From assembly GCA_037349315.1 (NCBI GenBank), contig JBAIAC010000008.1:39840001-39904000 (forward strand): a stretch of 64,000 nucleotides of DNA, in the 5' to 3' direction. A program made the position numbers and the translations under genes. The stretch comes from Chelydra serpentina (Eukaryota > Chordata > Testudines > Chelydridae). The stretch's first letter is position 1; each line of letters opens with the position of its first letter. Below the pieces are notes generated by a model. It worked only from the letters and a program-made list of their open reading frames with translations. It did not search any database and was not told the DNA's origin. Positions 11,713-61,229 of the stretch are shown piece after piece.

Positions 11713-12261
11713 ATTGAGATGACAGGAGAGACCGTCTCCCTTCTCTCAGTACAGGTGCCTGGACCTGTCATGGCCCACAGCAACCTAGAACTGCCATTGC
11801 AAGAAAAGTCCTGCTCAGCACCAGGTTTGAAGCGTCCATAGTGTGGAGGGAATCTTTGGGGGAAATTAGCTGCAACAATCTAAGGGTATGTCTACACTAC
11901 GGGACTAGTTCGATTTTTCTTTAACCGAACTTGTGAAACCGATATTGCAAGGTCGATCGTGCGAATCCACAGCAAGGACCTTAATTCGAATTTGTGAGTC
12001 CACAGTAACGGGGCAAGCGTCGACATTGCAAGCGGTGCACTGTGGGTAGCTATCCCACAGTTCCCGCAGTCCCCGCTGCCCACTGGAATTCTGAGTGTAG
12101 CCCCCAGGGTCTTCTGGGGCCAAAAATGTGCCGAGGGTGGTTATTGGTAAATGTCGTCACTCGACCCACACTCCCGCCCTCCCTACGTGAAAGTGCCGGC
12201 GGGCAATTAATTCGCGCCCTTTTCCGGTGATTGACAGCTCGGACGCCACAGGACAGCGAGC

Positions 12262-13545
12262 ATGGAGCCCTCCGCGATTATCGCTGCTGTTCTGTCCGTT
12301 GTCAACACCTTGTGCCTTATCGTCCACCTTTTCCAGAGGCAGATGCAGAGAAATCGGGCGAGAAGGCAACGGAAGCTCCGGGAGGACATGAACTCTGAGA
12401 GGGGCACAGACCTCTCGCAAAGCACGGGACCCCGGCCCGTAGAAATCATGGTGGCAATGGGGCACGTTGATCCTGTGGAACAGCGATTCTGGGCAAGGGA
12501 AACAAGCACTGATTGGTGGCACCGCATAGTGCTGCAGGTCCGGGATGAATCCCAGTGGCTGCGAAACTTTTGGATGCCTAAGGGCACTTTCCTGGAACTT
12601 TGTGAGTTGCTGTCCCCTGCCCTGAAGTGCCAGGACACCCGGATGCGAGCAGCCCTGACTATCCAGAAGCGAGTGGCCATAGCCCTGTGGAAGCTTGCAA
12701 CTCCTGACAGCTACCGGTCAGTCGCAAATCAATTTGGAGTGGGCAAGTCTACCGTGGGGGTTGCTGTGATGCAGGTAGCCCATGCAATCGTTGACCTGCT
12801 GCTCTCAAAGGTAGTGACCCTTGGAGACGTGCAGGTGATCAGAGATGGCTTTTCCGCTATGGGATTCCCAAACTGCAGCGGGGCTATTGATGGGACACAC
12901 ATCCCTATCCTCGGACCGGACCACCAGGGCAGCCAGTACATTAACCGAAAGGGCTATTTTTCTATGGTGCTGCAAGCACTAGTGGACCACAAAGGACGTT
13001 TTAGCAACATCAATGTCAGATGGCCGGGCAAGGTTCATGATGCTCGTGTTTTCAAAAACTCTGGTCTGTTTAGAAGGCTGCAAGAGGGTGTTTATTTCCC
13101 GGACAGCAAAATAATTGTTGGGGATGTGGAGATGCCTATAGTGATCCTCGGGGACCCGGCCTACCCGCTAATGCCCTGGCTCATGAAGCCATACACGGGA
13201 GCCCTGGACACTGAAAAGGAGCTCTTCAACTACCGGCTGAGCAAGTGCAGAATGGTGGTGGAGTGTGCCTTTGGCCGTCTGAAAGGTCGTTGGAGAAGCT
13301 TACTTACTCGCTCCGATCTCAGCCAAACAAATATCCCCATTGTGATTGCAGCGTGCTGTGTGCTCCACAATCTCTGTGAGAGGAAGGGGGAGACGTTTAT
13401 GGCGGGGTGGGAGGTTGAGGCAAATCGCCTGGCTGCTGATTACGCACAGCCGGACACCAGGGCGATTAGAAGATCACAGCGGGATGCGCTGCGCATCCGG
13501 GAAGCTTTGAAAGCTAGCTTCCAGAGCGAGTGGGGTAACCAGTGA
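12262..13545 (+). CDS. PIF/Harbinger DDE transposase, apparently intact (427 aa)
   Basis: This is a DDE superfamily (HARBI1-like) transposase, which cuts and rejoins element ends in the nucleus with help from the Myb partner protein. Visible parts: a hydrophobic N-terminal stretch at about residues 6-24, a basic segment at 28-40, a helix-turn-helix region around SYRSVANQFGVGKSTVG (150-166), and the catalytic triad at D210 (in AIDGTHI), D260 (in GKVHDARVF) and E334 (in MVVECAFG). The start is the first ATG, at GAGCATGGAG. The length suits the family. No stop or frameshift is present. An AATAAA lies 120 bp downstream. Copy 2 encodes nearly the same protein with one nonsense codon. Unusual: the membrane-like N-terminus is not typical of a nuclear enzyme. 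Confidence 0.93.
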   Translation: MEPSAIIAAVLSVVNTLCLIVHLFQRQMQRNRARRQRKLREDMNSERGTDLSQSTGPRPVEIMVAMGHVDPVEQRFWARETSTDWWHRIVLQVRDESQWLRNFWMPKGTFLELCELLSPALKCQDTRMRAALTIQKRVAIALWKLATPDSYRSVANQFGVGKSTVGVAVMQVAHAIVDLLLSKVVTLGDVQVIRDGFSAMGFPNCSGAIDGTHIPILGPDHQGSQYINRKGYFSMVLQALVDHKGRFSNINVRWPGKVHDARVFKNSGLFRRLQEGVYFPDSKIIVGDVEMPIVILGDPAYPLMPWLMKPYTGALDTEKELFNYRLSKCRMVVECAFGRLKGRWRSLLTRSDLSQTNIPIVIAACCVLHNLCERKGETFMAGWEVEANRLAADYAQPDTRAIRRSQRDALRIREALKASFQSEWGNQ

Positions 13546-14315: not shown

Positions 14316-16623
14316 CTAAAGTTTTGGAAATGAGAGCCTTCTGCTACTGGAGCAGTCTGCAGGGGTGGAGTGATTATTTCCACGGCCCCTGCCTCCCCTT
14401 GTTCTAGTGACTTTGGGTGAGTGGAGGATTGGACTTTGTGGCGGGGGAGGGCGGTTGGAAATAACATATAGAGGTGCTCTTTCCTCCTGTCTCCTGTCCT
14501 GGAGAACGTCCACCAGGTGCCGGAGCATGTCAGTTTGCTCCGTCATTAGTCCCAGCAGTGTTTGAGTTGCCTGCTGGTCTTCCTGCCGCCACCTGTCCTC
14601 GCGAGCTTCAGCCCTCTGCTCCTGTTCGCTGACTGCTCGCTCGGACCTTGAGACGTCCTCTCTCCGCTGTGCCGCCTCCTTTCGGGAACAGACCATCAAT
14701 TCTGAGAACATGTCGTCCCGGGTTCTCTTTTTGCACCGCCTGATCAGCACAAGCCTCTGGGAGGGTGATCCACGGGTAGGGCGGGAGACACTCGCAGCTG
14801 TGGGATGAGAGAAAGGGAGTGAATTCCTCAGATACTTTTTCCAGAACAATGCCTATACTCTTTCCCTGTGAATAAGACCAAGCACAGTACCTATCACATG
14901 TCCACTTACTACAAGGTCGAATATTATGTCTTTATCCTGAGTGTCTGGGGTCCCGGTGTACAGATCCCAGAAGCCTTGCTGAACACTGGAAATCTGCTCT
15001 CCGGAGACCATGGTAAGCTGATGAGTTTGAACTGCCGAGAGCTTACTTAACAGCAGTGCTCTACTCCCATGTTTCAATCACTGTTCCTGGCGGCGGCCAG
15101 TTCCTGCTGCTGCCCAAACCGCTCATCTACAGCGGCTCGCCAATCCTTTACACCCCCCTCCGCGTGGCCGCTCCCAGGAACTGAAAGTGCCCGCGAACCG
15201 CTCTGTTTGAATGGCTCGCCTACCCTTTCCCCCCCTCCGCGTGGCCGCTCCCGGCAACTGAAAGTGCCCGCGAACTGCTCCGTTTGAACGGCTCGCCTAC
15301 CCTTTCCCCCCCTCCCCGTGGCCGCTCCCGGGTACTGAAAGTGCCCGCGAACCGCTCTGTTTGAACGGATCGCCTACACTTTCCCCCCCTCCGCGTTGCC
15401 GCTGCCGGGGACTGAAAGTGCCCGCGAACTGCTCTGTCTGAACGGCTCGCGTACCCTTTCGCCCCCGCCCCCCCGCGTGGCCGGTCCCGGCAACTCTCCC
15501 TGCCCGCGCACCACAAAGTTCGAATGGTTAGCCTCCCAACTCCCTCCCCCCCCGCGTGGATGGAAACCGCCGGGTGTCTTTCTTTAAAGGGAAAATGAAG
15601 ACTTCACTATACTAAAGAAACCACTCATTCAAACCAGGGCACCATGACTGATATCACTCTGATGAGGATCACGGAGACAGAGAAAGAGTGCATGCTGCGT
15701 CAATGCCAGCAAACCCCGGGGCCATATGCAGCCATGCTATGCAAGGCAATGATACCAGAGTACCTGCAGCTTGCATGGCGCGGGAAAGTATCCTACCATG
15801 GAGGAGACAATAAGGCCACTCTCCCTGGGAACCTGATACAAAAGCTTTCACTGTACCTCCAGGAGAGCTTCGCGGAGATCTCCGATGGGGATTTCTCCTC
15901 TATCCCTATACATATTGACAGACTTTTCGAGTAGCTGTACTGGAAAACGACTCAAAGCTGAAGCGCCTAAGGCCAATTAAGCAATACAAACACAGTGCTT
16001 ATACACCATGCCTATTGTATTCCAAAGAAATGTTTAAAACACTGACCTGCTGATCCTTCGCCTGGTTCCTGGTCAGGGATGCTGCCTTGGGAGGGTTCGT
16101 AGGGGATCTCAGTCAGGGTGATGAATAGATCCTGGCTGTCGGGGAAATCAGCATTGAAAGCGCTGTCGACTGCCTCGTCCTCCTCCTCTCCTTCCTCATC
16201 TTCACCGTCCGCGAAAACCTCCGACGACATGGCCGTAGATAAGACCCCGTCGTCGGAGTCCACGGACACTGGTGGGGTAGTGGTGGCAGCACCACCGAGC
16301 ATAGCATGCAGTGCCTCGTAAAAACGGCAAGTGTGTGGCTGCGATCCGGAGCGTCCGTTGGACTCCTTGGTCTTCTGGTACGCCTGTCGCAGCTCCTTGA
16401 TTTTCACGCGGCACTGCGTTGCATCCCGGCTGTATCCTCTCTCCGTCATAGCCTGGGATATTTTCTCATAAACTTTTGCATTCCGTCTTTTAGATCGGAG
16501 CTCGGATAGGACGGATTCATCTCCGCACACAGCGATCAGATCCAAAACTTCCCAATCAGTCCATGCTGGAGCCCTCTTTCTATTCTGGGATTGCATGGGA
16601 ACCTCTGTTGGAGAGCTCTGCAT
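14316..16623 (-). CDS. Harbinger Myb/SANT DNA-binding protein, two exons (about 352 aa)
   Basis: This is the second standard Harbinger protein; Myb-like partners bind element DNA and carry the transposase to the nucleus. Exon 1 (16623-16047) starts at the ATG of MQSSPTEV and has a Myb/SANT domain at roughly residues 16-105, with the KRAPAWTDWEVLDLI and QCRVKIKELRQAY motifs, then an acidic stretch near 150-165. The donor is GCAG|GTCAGT at 16046. Exon 2 (14797-14316) follows the acceptor CTCATCCCACAG and encodes a charged, probably coiled-coil region (EQEQRAEAREDRW) and a Gly/Arg-Pro tail. The phase fits: exon 1 ends with one base of a codon and exon 2 supplies two. The joined length is 1059 nt including the stop. 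Splicing is inferred. A longer frame extends upstream to 16704, and the inner ATG is the better start. The intron holds an antisense third frame. Confidence 0.82.
15110..15580. repeat. 77-bp GC-rich tandem array inside Harbinger copy 1
   Basis: The unit, on the plus strand, runs from a C-rich CCGCGTGGCCGCTCCCGG block through ACTGAAAGTGCCCGCGAAC and GTTTGAACGGCTCGCC to CCTTTCC. Four good 77-bp copies lie between about 15163 and 15470, with degraded units on each side. The array is CpG-rich, lies within the Myb intron and ends about 60 bp before the third frame. Copy 2 carries the same array with about one unit fewer. Confidence 0.85.
15644..15934 (+). CDS. Third Harbinger reading frame, unknown function (96 aa)
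   Basis: I do not recognise a family. The 96-residue product starts at GGCACCATGACTG, a reasonable Kozak context. Its core is PGPYAAMLCKAMIP at about residues 25-38, then a single W45, KVS, LP at about 60-61, and a helical, acidic C-terminus ending HIDRLFE. It has no signal peptide or membrane segment. It lies on the transposase strand, antisense inside the Myb intron, just after the GC-rich array. Copy 2 has the same frame open with three amino-acid changes, and the divergent Harbinger at 57291-57593 encodes a gap-free homologue. A CAG at 15635-15637 precedes the ATG in frame and could be a splice acceptor, so this may be a terminal exon instead of a one-exon gene. Confidence 0.7.
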   Translation: MTDITLMRITETEKECMLRQCQQTPGPYAAMLCKAMIPEYLQLAWRGKVSYHGGDNKATLPGNLIQKLSLYLQESFAEISDGDFSSIPIHIDRLFE

Positions 16624-17016
16624 CGTTGCCAGTGCTGCTGAGCTCGCCACGATGTCCAAACAGGAAATGAGATTCAAACTGGCCAGACAGGAAAAGGAAT
16701 TCAAATTTTCCCGGGGCTTTCCCTGAGTGGCAGGTCAGAGCATCCGAGTACGGATTTCTGTCCTGAGCGTCCACTGAGTGGTGCGCTGTGGGATAGCTCC
16801 CGGAGCTATTAGCGTCGAATTCCGTCCACAGTACCACGAATTCGACATGGCCATGTCGAATTTAGCACTACTCCCCTCGTCGGGGAGGAGTACAGAAATC
16901 GAATTAAAGAGCCATTTATGTCGAAATAAATTGCTTCCTAATGTGGACGGGTGCAGGGTAAAATCGAGTTAACGCTGCTAAATTCGACATAAAGTCCTAG
17001 TGTAGACCAGGCCTAA

Positions 17017-24952: not shown

Positions 24953-26192
24953 TTTTCAGCCTTCTTTGAAGTCTGAGAGTAAACCAATGGTAGTGCACTG
25001 AGGCAACTGCCATGCTGAGGCTCGAGTTGCTATTGCTGAGCTATGGGAACTGCCACAAGGGGAGATTCCCCCTCCCCCCCTCACACATTCTGACCAACCA
25101 GCATCACTACAGCCTGGTCTACACTAGGACTTTATGTCGAATTTAGCAGCGTTAACTCGATTTAACCCTTCACCCATCCACATTAGGAAGCAATTTATTT
25201 TGACATAAATGGCTCTTTAATTCGATTTCTGTACTCCTCCCCGACGAGGGGAGTAGCGCCAAATTCGACATGGCCATGTCGAATTCGAGGTGCTGTGGAT
25301 GGAATTCGATGCTAATAGCTCCGGGAGGTATCCCACAGCGCACCACTCAGTGGACGCTCAGGACAGCAATCTGTACTCGGATGCTCTGACCTGCCACTCA
25401 GGGAAAGCCCCGGGAAAATTTGAATTCCTTTTCCTGTCTGGCCAGTTTGAATCCCATTTCCTGTTTGGACATCGTGGCGAGCTCAGCAGCACTCGCAACG
25501 ATGCAGAGCTTTACAGCAGAGGTTACCATGCAATCCCAGAATAGAAAGAGGGCTCCAGCATGGAGTGATCGAGAAGTTTTGGATCTGATCGCTGTGTGGG
25601 GAGATGAATCCGTCCTATCCGAGCTCCGATCTAAAAGACGGAATGCAAAAATTTACGAGAAAATATCCCAGGTAATGACGGAGAGAGGATACAGCCCCGC
25701 GGGATGCAACGCAGTGCCGCGTGAAAATCAAGGAGCTGCGACAGGCGTACCAGAAGACCAAGGAGTCCAACGGACGCTCCGGATCGCGGCCACACACTTG
25801 CCGTTTTTACAAGGCACTGCATGCTATGCTCGGAGGTGCTGCCACCACTACCCCACCAGTGTCCGTTGACTCCGACGATGGGGTCTTATCTACGGCCACG
25901 TCGTCGGAGGTTTTCGCAGACGGCGAAGATGAGGAAGGAGAGGAGGAGGACAAGGCAGTCGACAGCGCTTTCAATGCTGATTTCCCCGACGGCCAGGATC
26001 TATTCATCACCCTGACTGAGCTCCCCTACGAACCTCCCAAGGCAGCATCCCTGACCAGGAATCAGGCGAAGGATCAGCAGGTCAGTGTTTTAAACATTTC
26101 TTTGGAATACAATAGGCATGGTGTGTAAGCACTGTGTTAGTATTGCTTAATTGGCCTTATGTGCTTCAGCTGTGAGTCGCTTTACAGTGCAA

Positions 26193-26483
26193 CTACTCGA
26201 AAAGTCTGTCAATATGTATGGGGATAGAGGAGTAATCCCCATCAGAGATCTCCGCGAAGCTCTCCTGGAGATACAGTGAGAGCTTTTGTATCACGTTCGC
26301 TGGGAGAGTGGCCTTATTGTCTCCTCCATGGTAGGATACTTTCCCGCGCCATGCAAGCTGCAGGTACTCTGGTATCATTGCCTTGCATAGCATGGCTGCA
26401 TACGGCCCCGGGGTTTGCTGGCATTGACGCAGCATGCACTCTTTCTCTGTCTCCGTAATCCTCATCAGAGTGATATCAGTCAT
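26193..26483 (-). CDS. Third Harbinger reading frame, copy 2 (96 aa)
   Basis: The frame is intact on the minus strand, with the same ATG, length and stop as 15644-15934. Comparing the two by eye I count about ten base differences, seven silent and three changing a residue (Gly to Ala, Leu to Val, Phe to Tyr). The PGPYAAMLCKAM core and the HIDRLFE end are unchanged. It lies antisense in the Myb intron (26081-27251), as in copy 1. Function is unknown. Confidence 0.68.
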   Translation of the reverse strand: MTDITLMRITETEKECMLRQCQQTPGPYAAMLCKAMIPEYLQLAWRGKVSYHGGDNKATLPANVIQKLSLYLQESFAEISDGDYSSIPIHIDRLFE

Positions 26484-26599
26484 GGTGCCCTGGTTTGAAT
26501 GAGTGGTTTCTTTAGTATAGTGAATGCTTCATTTTCCCTTTAAAGAAAGACACCCGGCGGTTTCCATTAACGCGGGGGAGGAGGGAGTTGGGAGCAAAA

Positions 26600-26950
26600 C
26601 CATTCGAACTTAGCAGTGCGCGGGCAGGGAGAGTTCCCGGGACCGACCACGCGAAGCGGGGTAAAGGGTACGCGAGCCGTTCATACAGAGCAGTTCGCGG
26701 GCACTTTCAGTTCCCGGGACCGTCCACGCGGAGGGGTGGGAAGGGTGTTCGAGCCGTTCAAACAGAGCAGTTCGCGGGCACTTTCAGTTCCCGGGAGCGG
26801 CCACGGGGAGGGGGGGAAAGGGTAGGCGAGCCGTTCAAACACAGCGGTTCGCGGGCACTTTCAGTTCCTGGGAGCGGCCACGCGTAGGTGGGGTAAAGGA
26901 TTGGCGAGCCGCTGTAGATGAGCGGTTTGGGCAGCAGCAGTTCCTGGCCG
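26600..26950. repeat. 77-bp GC-rich tandem array inside Harbinger copy 2
   Basis: This is the reverse-complement counterpart of the array at 15110-15580. The recurring words are GTTCGCGGGCACTTTCAGTT and GAGCCGTTCA. About three good units plus degraded ends are present, roughly one fewer than in copy 1. Confidence 0.85.
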
Positions 26951-28503
26951 CAGCCGGGAACAGTGAAATGAAACATGGGAGTAGAGCACTGCTGAGAAGT
27001 AATCTCTCAGCAGTCCAAACTCATCAGCTTACCATGGTCTCCGGAGAGCAGATTTCCAGTGTTCTGCAAGGCTTCTGGGATCTGTACACCAGGACCCCAG
27101 ACACTCAGGATAAAGGCATAATATTCGACCTTGTAGTAGATGGACATGTGATAGGTACTGTGCTTGGTCCTATTCACAGGGAAAGAGTATATACATTGTT
27201 CTGGAAAAAGTATCTTTCTTAGGAATTCACTCCCTTTCTCTCATCTCACAGCTGCGAGTGTCTCCCGCCCTACCCGTGGATCACCCTCCCAGAGGCTAGC
27301 GCTGATCAGGCGGCGCAAAAAGAGAACCCGGGACGACATGTTCTCCGAATTGATGGTCTGTTCCCGAAGGGAGGCGTCACAGCGGAGAGAGGACATATCA
27401 AGGTCCGAGCGAGCAGCCAGGGAACGGGAGCAGAGGGCTGAAGCTCGCGAGGACAGGTGGTGGCAGGAAGACCAGCAGGCGACTCAAACGCTGCTGGGAC
27501 TAATGAGGGAGCAAACGGACACGCTCCGGCGCCTGGTAGACGTTCTCCAGGACAGGAGACAGGAGGAAAGAGTCCCTCTCTATGTAATTTCCAACCGCCC
27601 TCCCCCGCCACAAAATCCAATCCTCTACTCACCCAAAGTCACTAGGACGAGGGGAGGCAGGGGCCGTGGAAATAATCACTCCACCCCTGCAGACTGCTCC
27701 AGTAGCAGAAGGCTCTCATTTCCAAAACTTTAGATGGGTCCTTTCCCTCCCTCCAACCGCACCCCACAACACTTCCCTGCCCAGGTTTCATCTCAAAACT
27801 ATGCTCACCTTAATAAAAATGTTTGCTTTGTACAGTGCTGTTTCCCTGACTTTCTTTCACAGGACGGTTTGGTTTTGGGGGAGTGGGTAAGGGGGTTTGT
27901 AATTAGAAACAACAGGCGCCTGAACCAGGGTACAGACAGGGGGAAAGGATCAACAGAAAGTCACACTCACATTGCATGCACTAGGCACACTTGTCATTCT
28001 GGGAGGGGGTTTTCATGTTCTCTATGGGGGCGGGGGGGGCCTGTGACTTTCTGGTGGGGGAGGGCGGCTGCTGATCTATTGCGGCCGGTGATAGCCTGCA
28101 TGACAGATCCATGCAGCAGGGGATCTGTGGCCGCAATCCACGGCCAAAAAGTCACACAGGCACCACCACAGACAGTTGGGAATAGGAGGGGTTGCTGGCT
28201 CCCTTGAAACAAGCAGTCCAGCACTTCGGACTGCTCTGGGAGCAGGAGCATGTCATTCCCCAAGCTTGGAAGCGTACTTTCCAACACTCCACCCGCTCCC
28301 CAACAGCGGTATGCGTCCCAGGTTAAAACCTTAACCGAGAAACCAGTAATGGAGACGGTTTAAATAAACAATGTTTCCTTTATTGTACGTTTAAGGCGTT
28401 GAATGAAGGGAGGGAAGGGGGTTGGTAATTGGAGAGTATAGGCAACCGAAACTGGGAAAAGAAACGGGGGCAGTTTCAGCTTCTGTTTAAGCAAGCGTCA
28501 CAG

Positions 28504-29787
28504 TCACTTGTTACCCCACTCGCTCTGGAAGCTAGCTTTCAAAGCATCCCGGATGCGCAGCGCGTCCCGCTGTGATCTTCTAATCGCCCTGGTGTCCAGC
28601 TGCGTGTAATCAGCAGCCAGGCGATTTGCCTCAACCTCCCACCCCGCCATAAACATCTCCCCCTTTCTCTCACAGAGATTGTGGAGCACACAGCACGCTG
28701 CAATCACAATGGAGATATTTGTTTGGCTGAGATCTGAGTGAGTAAGTAAGCTTCACCATCTCCCTTTCAGACTGCCAAAGGCACACTCCACCACCATTCT
28801 GCACTTGCTCAGCCGGTAGTTGAAGAGCTCCTTTTCGGTGTCCAGGGCTCCCGTGTATGGCTTCATGAGCCAGGGCATTAGCGGGTAGGCCGGGTCCCCG
28901 AGGATCACTATAGGCATCTCCACATCCCCAACAGTTATTTTGCGGTCCGGGAAATAAACACCCTCTTGCAGCCGTCTAAACAGACCAGAGTTTTTAAAAA
29001 CACGAGCGTCATGAACCTTGCCCTGCCATCCGACATTGATGTTGCTAAAACGTCCTTTGTGGTCCACTAGTGCTTGCAGCACCATAGAAAAATAGCCCTT
29101 TCGGTTAATGTACTGGCTGCCCTGGTGGTCCGGTCCGAGGATAGGGATGTGTGTCCCATCAATAGCCCCGCTGCAGTTTGGGAATCCCATAGCGGAAAAG
29201 CCATCTCTGATCACCTGCACGTCTCCAAGGGTCACTACCTTTGAGAGCAGCAGGTCAACGATTGCATGGGCTACCTGCATCACAGCAACCCCCACGGTAG
29301 ACTTGCCCACTCCAAATTGGTTCGCAACTGACCGGTAGCTGTCAGGAGTTGCAAGTTTCCAAAGGGCTATGGCCACTCGCTTCTGGATAGTCAGGGCTGC
29401 TCGCATCCGGGTGTCCTGGCGCTTCAGGGCAGGGGACAGCAACTCACAAAGTTCCAGGAAAGTGCCCTTACGAATCCGAAAGTTTCGCAGCCACTGGGAT
29501 TCATCCCAAACGTGCAGCACTATGCGGTCCCACCAATCAGTGCTTGTTTCCCTTGCCCAGAATCGCCGTTCCACAGGATCAACGTGCCCCATTGCCACCA
29601 TGTTTTCTACGGGCCGGGGTCCCGTGCTTTGCGAGAGGTCTGTGCCCCTCTCAGAGTTCATGTCCTCCCGGAGCTTCCGTTGCCTCCTCGCCCGATTTCT
29701 CTGCATCTGATTCTGGAAAAGGTGGACGATAAGGCACGAGGTGTTGACAACGGACAGAACAGCAGCGATAATCGCGGAGGGCTCCAT
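28504..29787 (-). pseudogene. Harbinger transposase, one nonsense codon
   Basis: It has the same 428-codon frame as 12262-13545. The catalytic residues are present (AIDGTHI, GKVHDARVF, VVECAFG). An in-frame TGA at 28753-28755 replaces the Arg after KGRW, ten residues past the catalytic Glu. Downstream the frame continues unshifted to the normal stop, so this single change is the only break I see. The truncated product would keep the whole DDE triad but lose about 80 C-terminal residues. Confidence 0.88.
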
Positions 29788-30281
29788 GCTCGCTGTCCTG
29801 TGGCGTCCGAGCTGTCAATCACCGGAAAAGGGCGCGAATTAATTGCCCGCCGGCGCTTTCACGTAGGGAGGGCGGGAGTGTGGGTCGAGTGACGACATTT
29901 ACCAATAACCACCCTCGACACATTTTTGGCCCCAGAAGACCCTGGGGGCTACACCCAGAATTCCAGTGGGCAGCGGGGACTGCGGGAACTGTGGGATAGC
30001 TACCCACAGTGCACCGCTTGCAATGTCGACGCTTGCCCCGTTACTGTGGACTCACAAATTCGAATTAAGGTCCTTGCTGTGGATTTGCACGATCGACCTT
30101 GCAATATCGGTTTCACAAGTTCAGTTAAAGAAAAATCGAACTAGTCTCGTAGTGTAGACATACCCTACAAGTACATGAAGGATATAGCAGTGCTGCTGGT
30201 ATCATGCTAAGTCTCTGCTTCTGTACTTAGTCAATGTCTGAGAGCTGCTGCAGTTTGCCTGTTTCTCCTGTCAGTCCCTGT

Positions 30282-51094: not shown

Positions 51095-51362
51095 GGCCTA
51101 GTCTACAGTACAAAGTTAGGTTGGCTTAACTACATTTCTCAGGGCTGTGAAAAATGTCATTTATAATGTAATTAAGCCAGCCTAAGCTCCAGTGTAGACA
51201 CTGCTAGGTTGATGGAATAGTTCTTCCTTTGACCTAACTGCCACCTCTCGGAGAAGTGAAATTACTACAGTGAGGGAAGATCCTCTTCCGTTGCTGTAGT
51301 ATGTGTCTACACTAGAAACGCTACAACAGCACAACCGCAGCATTTCTAGTGTAGACATACCC
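51095..51362. mobile_element. Harbinger MITE (268 bp)
   Basis: The left end GGCCTAGTCTACAGTA and the complement of the right end, GGGTATGTCTACACTAG, reproduce the asymmetric pair of ends of the 5-kb Harbinger at 11884. A 3-bp TGA duplication flanks it (51092-51094 and 51363-51365). This makes it a likely non-autonomous passenger of that family. Confidence 0.82.
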
Positions 51363-54206: not shown

Positions 54207-56096
54207 AGAATCATAGAATCTCAGGGTTGGAAGGGACCTCAGGAGGTCATCTAGTCCAACCCCCTGCTCAAAGCAGGACCAACCCCAACAAAATCATCCC
54301 AGCCAGGGCTTTGTCAAGCCTGACCTTTAAAACCTCTAAGGAAGGAGATTCCACCACCTCCCTAGGTAACCCATTCCAGTGCTTCACCACCCTACTAGTG
54401 AAAACGTTTTTCCTAATATCCAACCTAAACCTCCCCCTCTGCAACTTGAGACCATTACTCCTTGTTCTGTCATCTTCTACCACTGAGAACAGTCTAGATC
54501 CATCCTCTTTGGAACCCCCTTTCAGGTAGTTGAAAGCAGCTATCAAATCCCACCTCATTCTTCTCTTCCGCAGGCTAAACAATCACAGTTCCCGCAGCCT
54601 CTCCTCATAAGTCATGTGCTCCAGCCCCCTAATCATTTTTGTTGCCCTCCGCTGGACTCTTTCCAATGTATCCACATCCTTCTTGTAGTGTGGGGCCCAA
54701 AACTGGACACACTACTCCAAATGAGGCCTCACCAGTGCCGAATAGAGGGGAATAATCACGTCCCTCGATCTGCTGGAAATGCCCCTACTTACACAGCCCA
54801 AAATGCTGTTAGCCTTCTTGGCAACAAGAGCACACTGTTGACTCATATTCAGCTTTTCGTAACCCCTAGGTCCTTTTCTGCAGAACCGCTGCCCAGCCAT
54901 TCGGTCCCTAGTCTATAGCAGTGCATGGGATTCTTCCGTCCTAAGTGCAGGACTCTGCACTTGTCCTTGTTGAACCTCCTCATATTTCTTTTGGCCCAAT
55001 CCTCTAATTTGTCTAGGTCCCTCTGTATCCTATCCCTACCCTCCAGCGTATCTACCATTCCTCCCAGTTTAGTGTCATCTGCAAACTTGCTAAGGGTGCA
55101 GTCCACACCATCCTCCAGGTCGTTGCTGAAGATATTGAACAAAACCGGCCCCAGCACCGACCCTTGGGGTACTCCACTTGATACCGGCTGCCAACTAGAC
55201 ATGGAGCCATTGATCACCACCTGTTGCGCGTGACCATCCAGCCAGTTTTCTATCCACCTTACCGTCCATTCATCCAGCCCATACTTCTTTAACTTGCTGT
55301 CAAGAACACTGTGGGAGACTGTATCAAAAGCTTTGCTAAAGTCAAGAAATAGCACATCCACTGCTTTCCCCTCATCCACAGAGCCGCAGAAGGCAATTAG
55401 GTTAGTCAGGCATGACTTGCCCTTGGTGAATCCATGCTGACTGTTCCTGATCACTTTCCCCTTCTTTAAGTGGTTCAGAATTGATTCCTCGAGGACCTGT
55501 TCCATGATTTTTCCAGGGACTGAGGTGAGACTGACTGGCCTGTAGTTCCCCGGATCTTCCTTCTTCCCTTTTTTAAAGATGGGCACTACATTAGCTTTTT
55601 TCCAGTCATCCGGGACCTCCCCTGATTGCCATGATTTGTCAAAGATAATGGCCAATGGCTCTGCAATCACATCGGCCAACTCCTTTAGCACCCTCAGATG
55701 CAGTGCATCCGGCCCCATGGACTTGTGCTCGTCCAGCTTTTCTGAATAGTCCCGAACTACTTCTTTCTGCACAGAGGGCTGGTCACCTCCTCCCCATACC
55801 GTTCTGTGGAGTGCAGCCGCCTGGGAGCTGACCTTGTCTGTGAAGACAGAGGCAAAAAAAGCATTGAGTACACTAGCTTTCTCCACATCCTCTGTCACTA
55901 GGTTCCCTCCCTCATTCAGCAAGGGACCCACACTTTCCTTGACTTTCTTCTTGTTGCTCACATACCTGAAGAAACCCTTCTTGTTACTCCTAACATCTCC
56001 GGCTAGCTGCAACTCCAAGTGTGATTTGGCCTTCCCTGCAACTCCAAGTGTGACTTGTCCATCTCTCTGCAACTCCGGGGGCAAATTATTAGGCAT
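54207..56096 (-). mobile_element. CR1 LINE, 5'-truncated, well preserved
   Basis: On the minus strand the element ends in the CR1 tail, with GAGGTCCCTTCCAACC and a terminal GATTCTATGATTCT. The upstream end lies within ORF2 between the endonuclease and reverse transcriptase regions, so the 5' half, including the endonuclease, is absent. It is less decayed than the other CR1 copies here. Its truncated end stops about 7 bp from the LTR at 56103. Confidence 0.9.
54849..56096 (-). pseudogene. CR1 ORF2 reverse transcriptase, partial
   Basis: The 415-codon open frame holds most of the reverse transcriptase: [21 protein letters not shown], less its last residue, then [22 protein letters not shown] and [10 protein letters not shown] with the catalytic Asp pair. 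LINE reverse transcriptase copies its own RNA at a nicked chromosomal site. A frame change follows LGVTKS, and the C-terminal part continues in other frames (54712-54900 and 54268-54582). With no 5' half and a broken C-terminus it cannot act alone. Confidence 0.88.
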
Positions 56097-56716
56097 TCAC
56101 AGTGTGACGTTGCACCTCATAAGGCTTTATGAAAATATGGTTATTAATGTATATTTGACATAACTGGAATATGTTTTATGCTACATATGCCATGTAACAT
56201 ATCTCTGTAAAGGTTATGATCTACTGAATCTATTCCTCCTATTTGTATGCATGTATCACTTTTGTATTCAAAGTTATGAATATTGGCTGTGTACTTGCTT
56301 GATTTTAAGTAGCCTTAGGGCATGGCTACACTTGTGATTTAGAGCGCATTAAAGCATCCCCGTGCGCTCTAACTCATGCAGCCATACTGGCAAGGCACGT
56401 AGAGCGCCCGGACTCCGAGGCTAGAGCGCTCCTGGTACTCCACCTCGGCGAGTGGAATAACCTTTGATGCGCCCCCGCTGGAGCGCCGCAGCGCCAGTGT
56501 GGACGCCCTGGTCTGTTAATGCGCTCTGATCGGCCTCCAGAAGTGTCCCACAATGCCTGTTCTAGCCACTCTGGTCATCGCTTTAAACTCTACTGCCCTG
56601 CCCTCAGGTGACCAACCGTCAGACCCACCCTTTAAATTCTCTGGGAATTTTGAAAATCCCCTTCCTGTTTGCTCAGCCAGGCGTGGAGTGCTCTCAGCGA
56701 ATCTTTCCAGGTGACC

Positions 56717-58440
56717 ATGCCTCCACGTGCCAGGCGATTTCCAGTATGGAGCAATGGCGAGGTGCTGGACCTCATCAGTGTTTCGGGGGGACGAAGCTGT
56801 CCAGTCCTAGCTGTGCTCCAGCTGTAGGAATTACGATACCTTCGGGTAGATATCAAGGGACATGATGGAAAGGGGCCATGACCGGGACGCAGTGCAGTGC
56901 AGGGTTAAAGTGAAGGAGCTGCGGAATGCCTACCGCAAAGCCCGCGAGGCAAACTGCCGTTCCTACAAAGAGCTGGACACGATACTTGAGGGGGGACTCC
57001 ACCTCCACTCCGAGGACCACCATGGACACTTCAGAGCCCAGTTCAAGCAGGCAGGAGGAGGAGGAAATTGGGAGTGAGGGTGCCGAGGAAGAGGAAGACA
57101 CCCCGGAATCCCTAGATGAATGCAGCCAGGAGCTGTTCTCAAGCCCAGGAGGAAGGTAGCCAATCGCGGTGGCCAGTGCTTGGGGAAGGACAAACACCAG
57201 AGGAGGTTCTCGGTAAGCTGCTCTTATTTTGGGAAGGAAGTTGTTCGGTGCGGGCTCTTGGGGCAAGGAGGGTTAGGGCTGAATGCATGCCTAGATGCGG
57301 AATAGGGCATTGATGTGCTCTCTCACATTGCGGTAATCGGCCTCAGTGATCTCCTCAAAGATCTCAACCAGAACTTGGGCAATGCGCTTATGCAGGTTTG
57401 TTGGGAGAGCTACTGTGGTCCTTGTCCCAGTCAGGCTAACATGTCTGCGCCACTGTGCCGTGAGGGGCAGGGGGACCATTGCTGTACACAGGCAAGCTGC
57501 ATATGGGCCAGGACAGAAACCACATTTTGTTAGAAGACCCTCCCTTGCTTCCAAGGTCACCCTCAGCAGCGAGATATCTTCCAGGACGAACTCCTGTGGA
57601 AAATGTGGGGACAGTGTTCAGTATAGGGGCCCCCTGCAAATGTTGGCTCTCTCCAAGGCACAGAAACCCAGAGGACAGTATGGCTGTGAAACAATCAGTC
57701 CCCCTTGACCCTGTGCTTACTCACCATTTTGGGGCTCCCATGGGTTATGTGCACTCGCTTTGGGACGGGCAAATTATGCTAATGTGCAGACTGTGCTTGC
57801 CCTTAAGTATGGGGGAATCATTGCTCTGTCTGGTGTGAACAATGCTGCCTCCGTTAAGTGTTGCATTTTGCCTTTACAGATGCAACCTTGAGATCTCAGC
57901 CGTCCATGTTATCACTGGCCGAAAGACTCCAAAGAATTAGGAAGAGGCCACATAGAAGCAAAGAAGACATGCTGCATGAAGTAATGCAGCAGTCCCTTAA
58001 CGAGAGTCTAAAAGCGCAGGAGTGGAGAGTGAAAGGTGGATCCACCAGCAGAATGAGGAGCACCTGCACAAAAGCGTGGAGCTCCGGCAGCGAAGCACGG
58101 ATCGACTGATAAACATCATGGAGCGCCAAGCGGACTTGATTCAGGCACTCGTAGCCATGTGGGTGGAGCACTACCGCGCCTGCCCCCACCCTGCAGCCCT
58201 TGTCCCAAAACTCTTTCCCTTGTGCCTCCATGTCACCTCCAACCCACTTTCCCCAACATCCCGGTTCTTACTGCCACCAGCTACCTCCAATACCTGTAGC
58301 TTCACCACCCAGTCCTGAAAACTACGACCCTTACCTACTGCACTCAACCCCCATCACCATGCATTATAGCCATCCTGAAGTGCAGCACTCATTGCGCAGC
58401 ACTCCAGGCAGGAAGGCTGAGTATGATAACAGGACATACG
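56717..58440 (+). pseudogene. Harbinger Myb/SANT gene of the third element, decayed
   Basis: Exon 1 starts at the ATG of MPPRARRFPVW and contains pieces of the Myb domain in different frames (GEVLDLISV, then MERGHDRDAVQCRVKVKELR less its last residue, at 56862). An early stop follows CPVLAVLQL. The donor TCTCG|GTAAGC at 57213 and the acceptor GCCTTTACAG before 57880 give a canonical GT-AG intron. Exon 2 encodes a charged region (ERLQRIRKRPHRSKEDMLHEV less its last residue) aligned with exon 2 of copies 1 and 2, then a frameshift near 58030. An AATAAA lies at 58515. The gene is dead. Confidence 0.75.
57291..57593 (-). CDS. Third Harbinger reading frame, divergent homologue
   Basis: The minus-strand frame aligns without gaps to the 96-aa frame of copies 1 and 2 from DISLLRV to HINALF. 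About 31 of 80 positions are identical from the shared Cys onward by my count, including PGPYAA, LC, AM, W, LP, NL and the HI..LF end. No ATG opens it: the frame runs upstream through CTG GAA GAT ATC to a CAG at 57594-57596, which could be a splice acceptor (ATTTTCCACAG). It ends with a stop just after LFRI. It is antisense within the Myb intron (57213-57879). Function is unknown; it may be an exon, or its start codon may be lost. Confidence 0.6.
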   Translation of the reverse strand, partial: EFVLEDISLLRVTLEAREGLLTKCGFCPGPYAACLCTAMVPLPLTAQWRRHVSLTGTRTTVALPTNLHKRIAQVLVEIFEEITEADYRNVREHINALFRI

Positions 58441-58651
58441 CAAATCTGTGATTGTACCGTTCCCCACCCCACTCCCTTGCCCTTTCTGTTTCCCAAGCAG
58501 TTGTGTTTCTTTTCAATAAATTGATTTTTTGGCTTTGAAAACATTCTTTGTTATTGCATAAAGTAAAAGATACCTTAGCCCAGGAAAGCAACAGGCACTG
58601 CAAGTCAGCGTAGCAAACACAGATTCCTACTAACATTGGAACCACTGCACT

Positions 58652-59904
58652 TCACTCCCGTGCAGGGCACAGACATTGCTGGTGGCTTTCAGCCTCAAAT
58701 TGCTCCCTCAGGGCATCCCTAATCCTTGCAGCCCCTCTAATAGCCCTGCTCTCTGGCTGTTCAAATTCAGCCTCCAGGTGTTGAACCTCCGAGTTCCATG
58801 CCTGAGTGAATCTTTCCCTCTTCCCTTTACAAATGTTATGGAGGGTACAGCATGCGGATAAAACCCCGGGGATGTTGTCATCAGCCAGGTCCAACTTCCC
58901 ATACAAAGAGTACCAGCGGTCCTTTAAATGGCCAAAAGCGCACTCCACAGTCATTGTGCATCGGCTCAGCCTGTTGTTGAACTGCTCCTTGCTGCTGTCA
59001 AGGCTCCCTGTGTAGGGTTTCATGAGCCACAGCATTAAAGGGTAAGCGGGGTCTCCAAGGATCACAACGGGCATTCGACTTCCCCTATGGTGATCTTCTG
59101 GTCTGGGGGAAAAAGTCCTAGATTGCAGCTTCCTGAACAGGCCAGTGTTCCAAAAGATGCGTGCAACATGCACCTTTCTGGGCCAGCCTGCGTTAATGTT
59201 AATGAAATGCCCACGGTGATCCACAAGCGCCTGGAGAACCATAGAGAAATACCCCCTTCCAGTTAATGTACTCGAAGGTTAGGTGGGCTGGTGCCAGAAT
59301 TGGAATATGTGTCCAAGCTATCGCCCCTCTGCAGTTAGGTAAACCCATTTGTGCAAAGCCAGCCACAATGTCATGCACATTACCCAGAGTCATGGTTCTT
59401 CTGAGCAGGATGTGATTAATGGCCCTGCAAACTTGCATCAACAGGATTCCAACGGTTGACTTTCCCACTCCAAACTGGTTAGCGACTGATCGATAGCTGT
59501 CTGGAGTTGCCAGCTTCCAGATTGCAATAGCCACCCGCTTCTCTACCGTCAAGGCAGCTCTCAATCTCGTGTCCTTGTGTCGCAGGATGGGGGTGAGCTC
59601 CTCACACAGTCCAATGAAAGTGGCTTTTCTCATCCGAAAGTTCTGCAGCCACTCCTAGTCATCCCAGACTTGCAGGACGATGTGATCCCATCACTTAGTG
59701 CTCGTTTCCCAAGCCCAAAAGCGGCGTTCCATGGTGGTGAGCATTATCCGTGAATGCCACAAGCAATCTCGTGTCGTATGCGTTACTCGAATTGATGTTG
59801 TCGGAGTCCTCACTGCCAGTTTGGATCTTAAGGAGTAAATCAATTGCCAAACGTGACATGCTGGCGAGACTCGTCAGCATATTCCTCAGCAGTTCGGGCT
59901 CCAT
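58652..59904 (-). pseudogene. Harbinger transposase of the third element, inactive
   Basis: A likely start is the ATG of MEPELLRNML at 59904. A nonsense codon lies near 59657 (VWDD-stop-EWLQ). The helix-turn-helix SYRSVANQFGVGKSTVG is kept. The first catalytic Asp is lost (AIAWTHI in place of AIDGTHI) and the second is Val (KVHVARIF in place of KVHDARVF); the Glu is kept (MTVECAFG). A frameshift near 59220 joins two frames. With two catalytic residues gone it cannot cut DNA. Confidence 0.88.
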
Positions 59905-61229
59905 TCCCACAGACCAAAAGGGAAGACAGAGCGCGCAGTACAAGAAAGATGGTGCCAAATGTGGACGGAAGCACGGGGATTGCTGGGATGCGAACCGATG
60001 CATCACGGGGTGTTGGGACAGGACCAAGAATGCCCCGCCCCCTTCCCAGAAGCCACACCGCCAGAATGGGAAGAGGTGCTCTGTGGGATAGCTGCCCATA
60101 ATGCACCGCTCCCAATGCCTCTGCAAGTGCTGCAAATGTGGCCATGCCAGTACGCTTGCGGCTGTCAGTGTGGACAGACTGCAGCGCTTTCCCTACTGCG
60201 CTCTATGAAGGCTGATTTAACTCAAAGCGCTGTACATTTGCAAGTGTAGCCATGCCCTTAGTAAAGCATTTGGTCAGCTTCTTGAGAAAGGAATGCGCAA
60301 GTGAAGTGCCCAATCAAGGAACACTTAATGGACAATTGATCTTGGAAGGCTCCAATCCACATAAGAAGTCTACTTGAGGACGTTCAAGGTAGCATGTGAA
60401 CCATGGCTGTTACCTGTAAGTTCTGAGTCATGCGTGGACATGTGACTTGCCCATGTGACTCCAAATCTCCATCTTATAGCTGGGGTTCTACACAGGGGGA
60501 GGGAGAGGTGTCCACCCACAAGAGAGAGTCTGTTTAACCCCCTGGAAGAGCCCTCCATTTTGTCTTCAGCTGGCTCAAGAGATATCCTTGGAGGTGGAGA
60601 GGCTACCTGAAAGAAACTGGAACAAAGGACAGTAACCACAGGGGCTGTGAGTGATTGCTGGACCCTGACTAGAAGGAGACTAGTCTGTAAAAGGTAGCTT
60701 ACTGGAACACCTCTGAGGGTAAGGTTTTATCTGTATTCAGTTTTCTTACTGTATTAGGCATAGATTTGCGGGTTCTATTTTATTTTGCTTGGTAATTCAC
60801 CTTGTTCTGTCTGTTACTACTTGGAACCACTTAAATCCTACTTTCTGTATTTAATAAAATCACTTTTTACTTCTTTAACCTGGAGTGTGTATTAATACCT
60901 GGGGGGGGGGGCAAACAGCTGTGCATATCTCTCTATCAGTGTTATAGAGAGCGAACAATTTATGAGCTTTATACAGGGTAAAACGGAGTTATTTGGGGTT
61001 TGGACCTGAGTGTTAGAGACAGGAACACTTCTTATGCTGCTTTCAGTTAAGCCTGCAGTTTGTGGGACGTGGTTCAGACCTGGGTCTGTTTGTAGCCGGC
61101 AAGTGTGTCTGGCACAACCAGGCAGGGTTCTGGAGTCCCAAGCTGCCAGAGCAGGAAAGCAGGGGCAGGAGTAGTCTTGGCACATCAGTTGGCAGCCTCA
61201 AGGGGGTTTCTGTGATCCAACCCATCACG

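Follow-up and report, generated by a model that had tools for sequence, protein, structure and literature searches.

A very probable third gene, antisense to Myb and inside its intron, in PIF/Harbinger transposons of the turtle Chelydra serpentina, with a possible BEN-like product

Does a PIF/Harbinger transposon of the turtle Chelydra serpentina carry, beside its transposase and Myb-like genes, a third gene, and what might the product of that gene do? The question is raised by a short open reading frame, hereafter ORF3, in a stretch of 64,000 nucleotides (nt) of contig JBAIAC010000008.1 (positions 39,840,001 to 39,904,000, forward strand; hereafter the window), where the frame lies on the transposase strand inside the intron of the oppositely oriented Myb gene. 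We hold it very probable that this third gene is real, and we regard the element that harbors it as a new form of PIF/Harbinger, its third protein being of uncertain family. The boldest reading, to which we assign a probability of roughly 0.4, goes further: the transposon may encode its own BEN-fold protein from this nested antisense gene, and by binding chromatin or DNA the protein may regulate how the element itself spreads.

Layout of ORF3 in three elements

The original prediction placed a 96-codon frame within the antisense Myb intron of the first element of the window; translation indeed gives 96 amino acids (aa) and a stop codon, and the donor and acceptor of the Myb intron flank the frame. 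The features of this element (element 1, family 1) are as follows.

15644..15934, plus strand: ORF3, contained in one exon from ATG to stop codon, 96 aa
11884..17013, plus strand: PIF/Harbinger element 1, delimited from sequence; terminal repeats GGGTATGTCTACACTA... / ...TAGTGTAGACCAGGCC
12262..13545, plus strand: DDE transposase, 427 aa; PF13359, E-value 6e-36
16047..16704, minus strand: exon 1 of the Myb/SANT-like gene, with putative start codon; PF13837, E-value 1e-20
14316..14797, minus strand: exon 2 of the Myb gene (C-terminal part), coiled-coil-like by eye
15133..15466, plus strand: GC- and CpG-rich tandem repeats of 77 bp upstream of ORF3, a candidate promoter
16025..16030, plus strand: polyadenylation signal of ORF3, decayed here; the family consensus has AATAAA

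The transposase is of the DDE_Tnp_4 type and the second protein is Myb/SANT-like, both profile matches lying over the cut-off. As read from the sequence, the Myb intron runs from 16046 (donor CAG/GTCAGT, the slash marking the splice boundary) to an acceptor, CATCCCACAG, ending at 14798, and the spliced Myb frame continues into the downstream minus-strand frame that forms exon 2. ORF3 lies antisense within this intron. The 77-bp repeat occurs in 1 to 6 units across 22 family-1 copies and resembles a repeated promoter unit; it could be a binding site for a protein of the element. Its CpG is not depleted (observed/expected 1.07 in the first copy), and the second site of the repeat in the window is at 26632-26911.

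Two further elements of the window carry ORF3.

26193..26483, minus strand: ORF3 of element 2, intact; minus is the transposase strand of element 2
25111..30165, minus strand: element 2, an inverted family-1 copy (ends approximate)
57291..57593, minus strand: ORF3 exon 2 of element 3, preceded immediately by the acceptor TTTTCCACAG; minus is the transposase strand
57725..57727, minus strand: ORF3 start codon of element 3, the ATG abutting the donor GTGAGTAAG
56318..60257, minus strand: element 3, a PIF/Harbinger element of family 3, with terminal repeats GGGCATGGCTACACTTG

The copy in element 2, which had also been called intact, reads through on the minus strand and gives a protein 97% identical to that of element 1. 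The Myb exon of this element (25420-26112) matches piecewise in differing frames, and ORF3 there is intact. Terminal inverted repeats with a 3-bp target-site duplication are present in elements 1 and 3, the duplication being TAA for element 1 (11881-11883 and 17014-17016) and TTA for element 3 (56315-56317 and 60258-60260). Element 3, whose transposase is broken across two frames, represents a separate family because its transposase pieces are 56% and 64% identical to those of element 1 and its terminal repeats differ. Its ORF3 is again antisense within the Myb intron, for which we read a donor at 57213 and an acceptor ending at 57879; both splice sites of the Myb gene are of standard form in elements 1 and 3. 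The prediction of a gap-free homologue in a clearly different Harbinger held (39/96 residues, 41% identical to element 1), with one correction: 57291-57593 has no in-frame ATG, because the start codon sits on a separate exon, across an intron of 131 nt (57594-57724).

This split structure is a property of family 3, where a mini-exon closes with the start codon (ATG/GTGAGT) and is followed by the 131-nt intron and the junction CAG/GAGTTC. None of 30 family-3 loci has an ATG in the 12 codons preceding the homology, and 21/30 have a stop codon there. The acceptor preceding the frame reads CACAG at 28 of the 30 loci and CCCAG at one, and is lost at one (L036). Upstream, the consensus of these loci reads AAAATG followed directly by GTGAGTAAG; the exact string ATGGTGAGT is found in 24/30 loci and a near form in one more, so that start codon and donor are kept in 25/30. 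Among the other five, L031 and L043 have lost the G of the donor, L036 and L055 have lost the start codon, and L038 differs wholly. A further lineage, 3b, likewise has a 131-nt intron; the joined start reads MEFVLEDISLLRV at L079 and L081, L080 has the same donor, and L082 lacks the exact donor string. At L079, the layout is the same, with the transposase C-terminus on the ORF3 strand and Myb frames on both sides on the opposite strand. An AATAAA follows the stop codon, still within the Myb intron, in 19/22 family-1 copies (at a distance of about 90 nt), 21/30 family-3 loci and 4/4 family-3b loci; the signal is decayed in elements 1 and 3 of the window. Because ORF3 is short and, in one family, has its start codon on a separate exon, it is easily overlooked.

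The family-3 frame begins at a splice acceptor with the transposase upstream on the same strand, an arrangement in which ORF3 might be an alternative terminal exon joined to the transposase transcript rather than a separate gene. However, a conserved start codon lies 131 nt upstream, flush against a donor, and makes the short gene complete, and family 1 has its own ATG; we regard the terminal-exon explanation as very improbable.

Two other stretches of the window are recorded here. Short stretches at 51191-51357, whose ends are of the TGTCTACACT type and resemble the element-1 terminal repeats, are possibly small non-autonomous relatives. On the minus strand, 54849-56096 contains an open frame of 415 aa that appears by eye to be a reverse-transcriptase fragment of a non-long-terminal-repeat retrotransposon.

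Copies, coding frame and selection

The genome searched comprises 2.28 Gb in 806 contigs. With the family-1 ORF3 as query, the best 150 of 13382 candidates were all at least 95% identical, and 148 were free of stop codons; these copies were picked by protein score, and the stop-free share is accordingly a biased rate. The copies compared were chosen through an ORF3 match, and the counts describe Harbinger copies that carry it. Of 20 family-1 copies drawn from the ranked list for detailed comparison, 20/20 have ORF3 and Myb exon 1, and 19/20 have at least part of both the transposase and Myb exon 2 (the exception being L012). The element-3 homologue as query gave 12989 candidates, the best 150 of which were 75-100% identical, with a stop codon in 25/150 by our own count; lineage 3b was found among the lower-ranked matches of this search. 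When lineage 3b itself served as query, the best 150 scored were all at least 95% identical and 148 lacked stop codons. With regard to transposition, the observation is one of near-identical copies. A search with the Myb domain gave 12922 candidates, the best 150 of which were scored and recorded as coordinates only. No relatives of ORF3 were found in collections of viral contigs and prokaryote genomes, as expected for an animal transposon.

Conservation of ORF3 concerns the protein, as blastn between the introns of the two families returned pieces of 11-31 nt only. When the two families are compared, 1 to 6 stop codons interrupt every one of the five other reading frames over ORF3 in both window sequences, and in the consensus sequences of families 1, 3a and 3b the sense frame alone is stop-free in all three. 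The sense frame is open in 20/22 family-1, 25/30 family-3 and 4/4 family-3b copies.

In terms of sequence comparison, ORF3 shows the substitution pattern of purifying selection. Between families 1 and 3, the nonsynonymous rate (dN) is 0.58-0.61 and the synonymous rate (dS) about 1.9, giving ratios of 0.30-0.31 that are rough because such a dS is near saturation; between 3a and 3b, where 11 changes are synonymous and 16 nonsynonymous, dN/dS is 0.47. For variants shared among the 30 family-3 loci, the nonsynonymous-to-synonymous ratio (N:S) relative to neutral is 0.51 in the sense frame, 1.8 and 3.5 in the shifted frames, and 2.1, 0.54 and 4.0 in the antisense frames. Five shared non-CpG variants were found within the family-1 ORF3, three of them nonsynonymous, which are too few to weigh.

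The value of 0.54, obtained in antisense frame 1, bears on a further explanation, namely that nothing but chance, or constraint on the other strand or on a regulatory RNA such as an antisense RNA against Myb, keeps the frame open. ORF3 does overlap the Myb intron antisense, and antisense frame 1 has, in addition to its similar N:S, 35/95 identical residues between the families and is open in 4/4 family-3b loci. The third codon positions of this frame, however, are also those of the sense frame, which it must therefore mirror; antisense frame 1 contains two stop codons in the family-1 consensus and one in that of 3a, and is closed in 22/22 and 30/30 copies, respectively. The sense frame, by contrast, has no stop codon in any of the three consensus sequences, and its similarity score is 206 versus 106 for the antisense frame; the splice and polyadenylation signals belong to the sense strand, and the short blastn pieces again indicate a conserved protein. 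We consider this the most improbable of the explanations weighed here. As a separate observation, the antisense frame over ORF3 runs through 184 codons without a stop in lineage 3b (L079, 1247-1799, minus strand), beginning with an ATG near the ORF3 stop codon; families 1 and 3a have it closed.

The view of ORF3 as a real third component, put forward in the original prediction from two families, is thus supported by the gene structure (splice sites and polyadenylation signals), by a third lineage and by dN/dS values of 0.30-0.47, and the openness of the frame is very probably not a mere consequence of overlap with another constrained sequence.

Predicted fold and possible role

ORF3 was predicted to be all-helical in two AlphaFold models (families 1 and 3b), both of low confidence. 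For the family-1 model, BEN domains, whose fold has five helices, were the top match in two structure libraries, and in the Protein Data Bank (PDB) their TM-scores stood clearly apart from those of unrelated folds. The earlier guess of a small helical DNA-binding module therefore agrees with the models in its helical part, with one BEN-like match; DNA binding is unproven. We put a BEN-like DNA- or chromatin-binding accessory role at about an even bet, as a best guess, unproven.

Several results weigh against a BEN fold. The family-3b model had no BEN match; no significant match to ORF3 was found in Pfam, where the profile search proposed earlier came to nothing, or in NCBIfam or PDB sequences; and the Pfam BEN profile PF10523 matched 0/21 ORF3 proteins. 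In family 1, the C-terminal helix is poor in basic residues. Comparison with the sequences of known BEN domains did not establish a similarity: between profiles, the score fell within the controls and a reversed control scored higher; in pairs, family 1 alone scored above shuffles. The lack of a BEN match for 3b, the absence of significant sequence matches and the composition of this helix would suit a real third protein that is a small helical protein of another fold, acting by protein contact, e.g., by binding Myb or the transposase and thus tuning transposition. Against such a protein stands the family-1 model, with its first-ranked BEN domains in two libraries and its TM-score gap; we hold this alternative to be a serious possibility, at somewhat less than even odds.

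In the genome, PF10523 matched at 10 places, none of which is an ORF3. One match to a host BEN exon (L065) lies near minus-strand frames that look by eye like retroelement coding sequence. Weak Pfam matches of ORF3 proteins to UNC45-central (E-value 0.033, 3/21), DMAP_binding (0.062, 3/21) and Mid1 (0.16, 1/21) were judged to be due to chance.

In our best explanation, these elements form a PIF/Harbinger lineage with three genes, the third encoding a protein of about 96-101 residues. ORF3 is, on this view, a compact gene wholly inside the Myb intron and opposite to it in strand; it has a start and a polyadenylation signal of its own and, in family 3, a small intron as well, and it would be expressed from the CpG-rich upstream stretch (in family 1, the 77-bp repeat). 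The protein, presumably all-helical, BEN-like and nuclear, would bind DNA or chromatin and may cooperate with the transposase and Myb proteins or act upon them, either as a regulator of element expression or as a cofactor at the element ends. Of the 15 consensus differences between 3a and 3b, 5 fall in the C-terminal helix, the one by which known BEN domains read DNA. The nesting itself could couple ORF3 and Myb expression through transcription of opposite strands.

Comparison with known transposon systems

A third selected gene in abundant families suggests that the PIF/Harbinger system may have an unstudied part, and its position shows that a gene can hide in an intron on the opposite strand; host genes derived from ORF3 may exist. 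Our elements share with two-gene PIF/Harbinger transposons the DDE_Tnp_4 transposase, the Myb-like second gene, the terminal inverted repeats and the 3-bp TAA/TTA duplication, but differ in that a third gene sits within the Myb intron on the antisense strand. According to PMC9710019, every known PIF element of plants or animals has two genes, Harbinger elements are described with two ORFs in PMC9179366, and PMC2836001 and PMC9179366 state that mobilization needs two element proteins. Among the papers listed in searches of an open-access full-text library, none was seen to describe Harbinger elements with a third gene or a DNA transposon with a BEN domain.

ISL2EU, a Harbinger-like group, resembles our elements in having a non-Myb protein beside a DDE transposase. 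The second protein of ISL2EU, however, is a YqaJ exonuclease according to a passage in PMC9179366, whereas ORF3 has no significant Pfam match and is additional to Myb. The BEN-domain proteins BEND3, BANP, NACC1, BEND6 and a poxviral one are helical, as ORF3 is predicted to be, and provide the best structural match of the family-1 model; ORF3 differs from them in having neither a Pfam BEN match nor established sequence similarity, and its second model has no match to them. A further distinction is that ORF3 stands alone as a protein of 96-101 aa and is encoded in a DNA transposon; if the BEN reading is true, transposons would join animal chromatin factors and poxviruses as carriers, and possible sources, of BEN domains.
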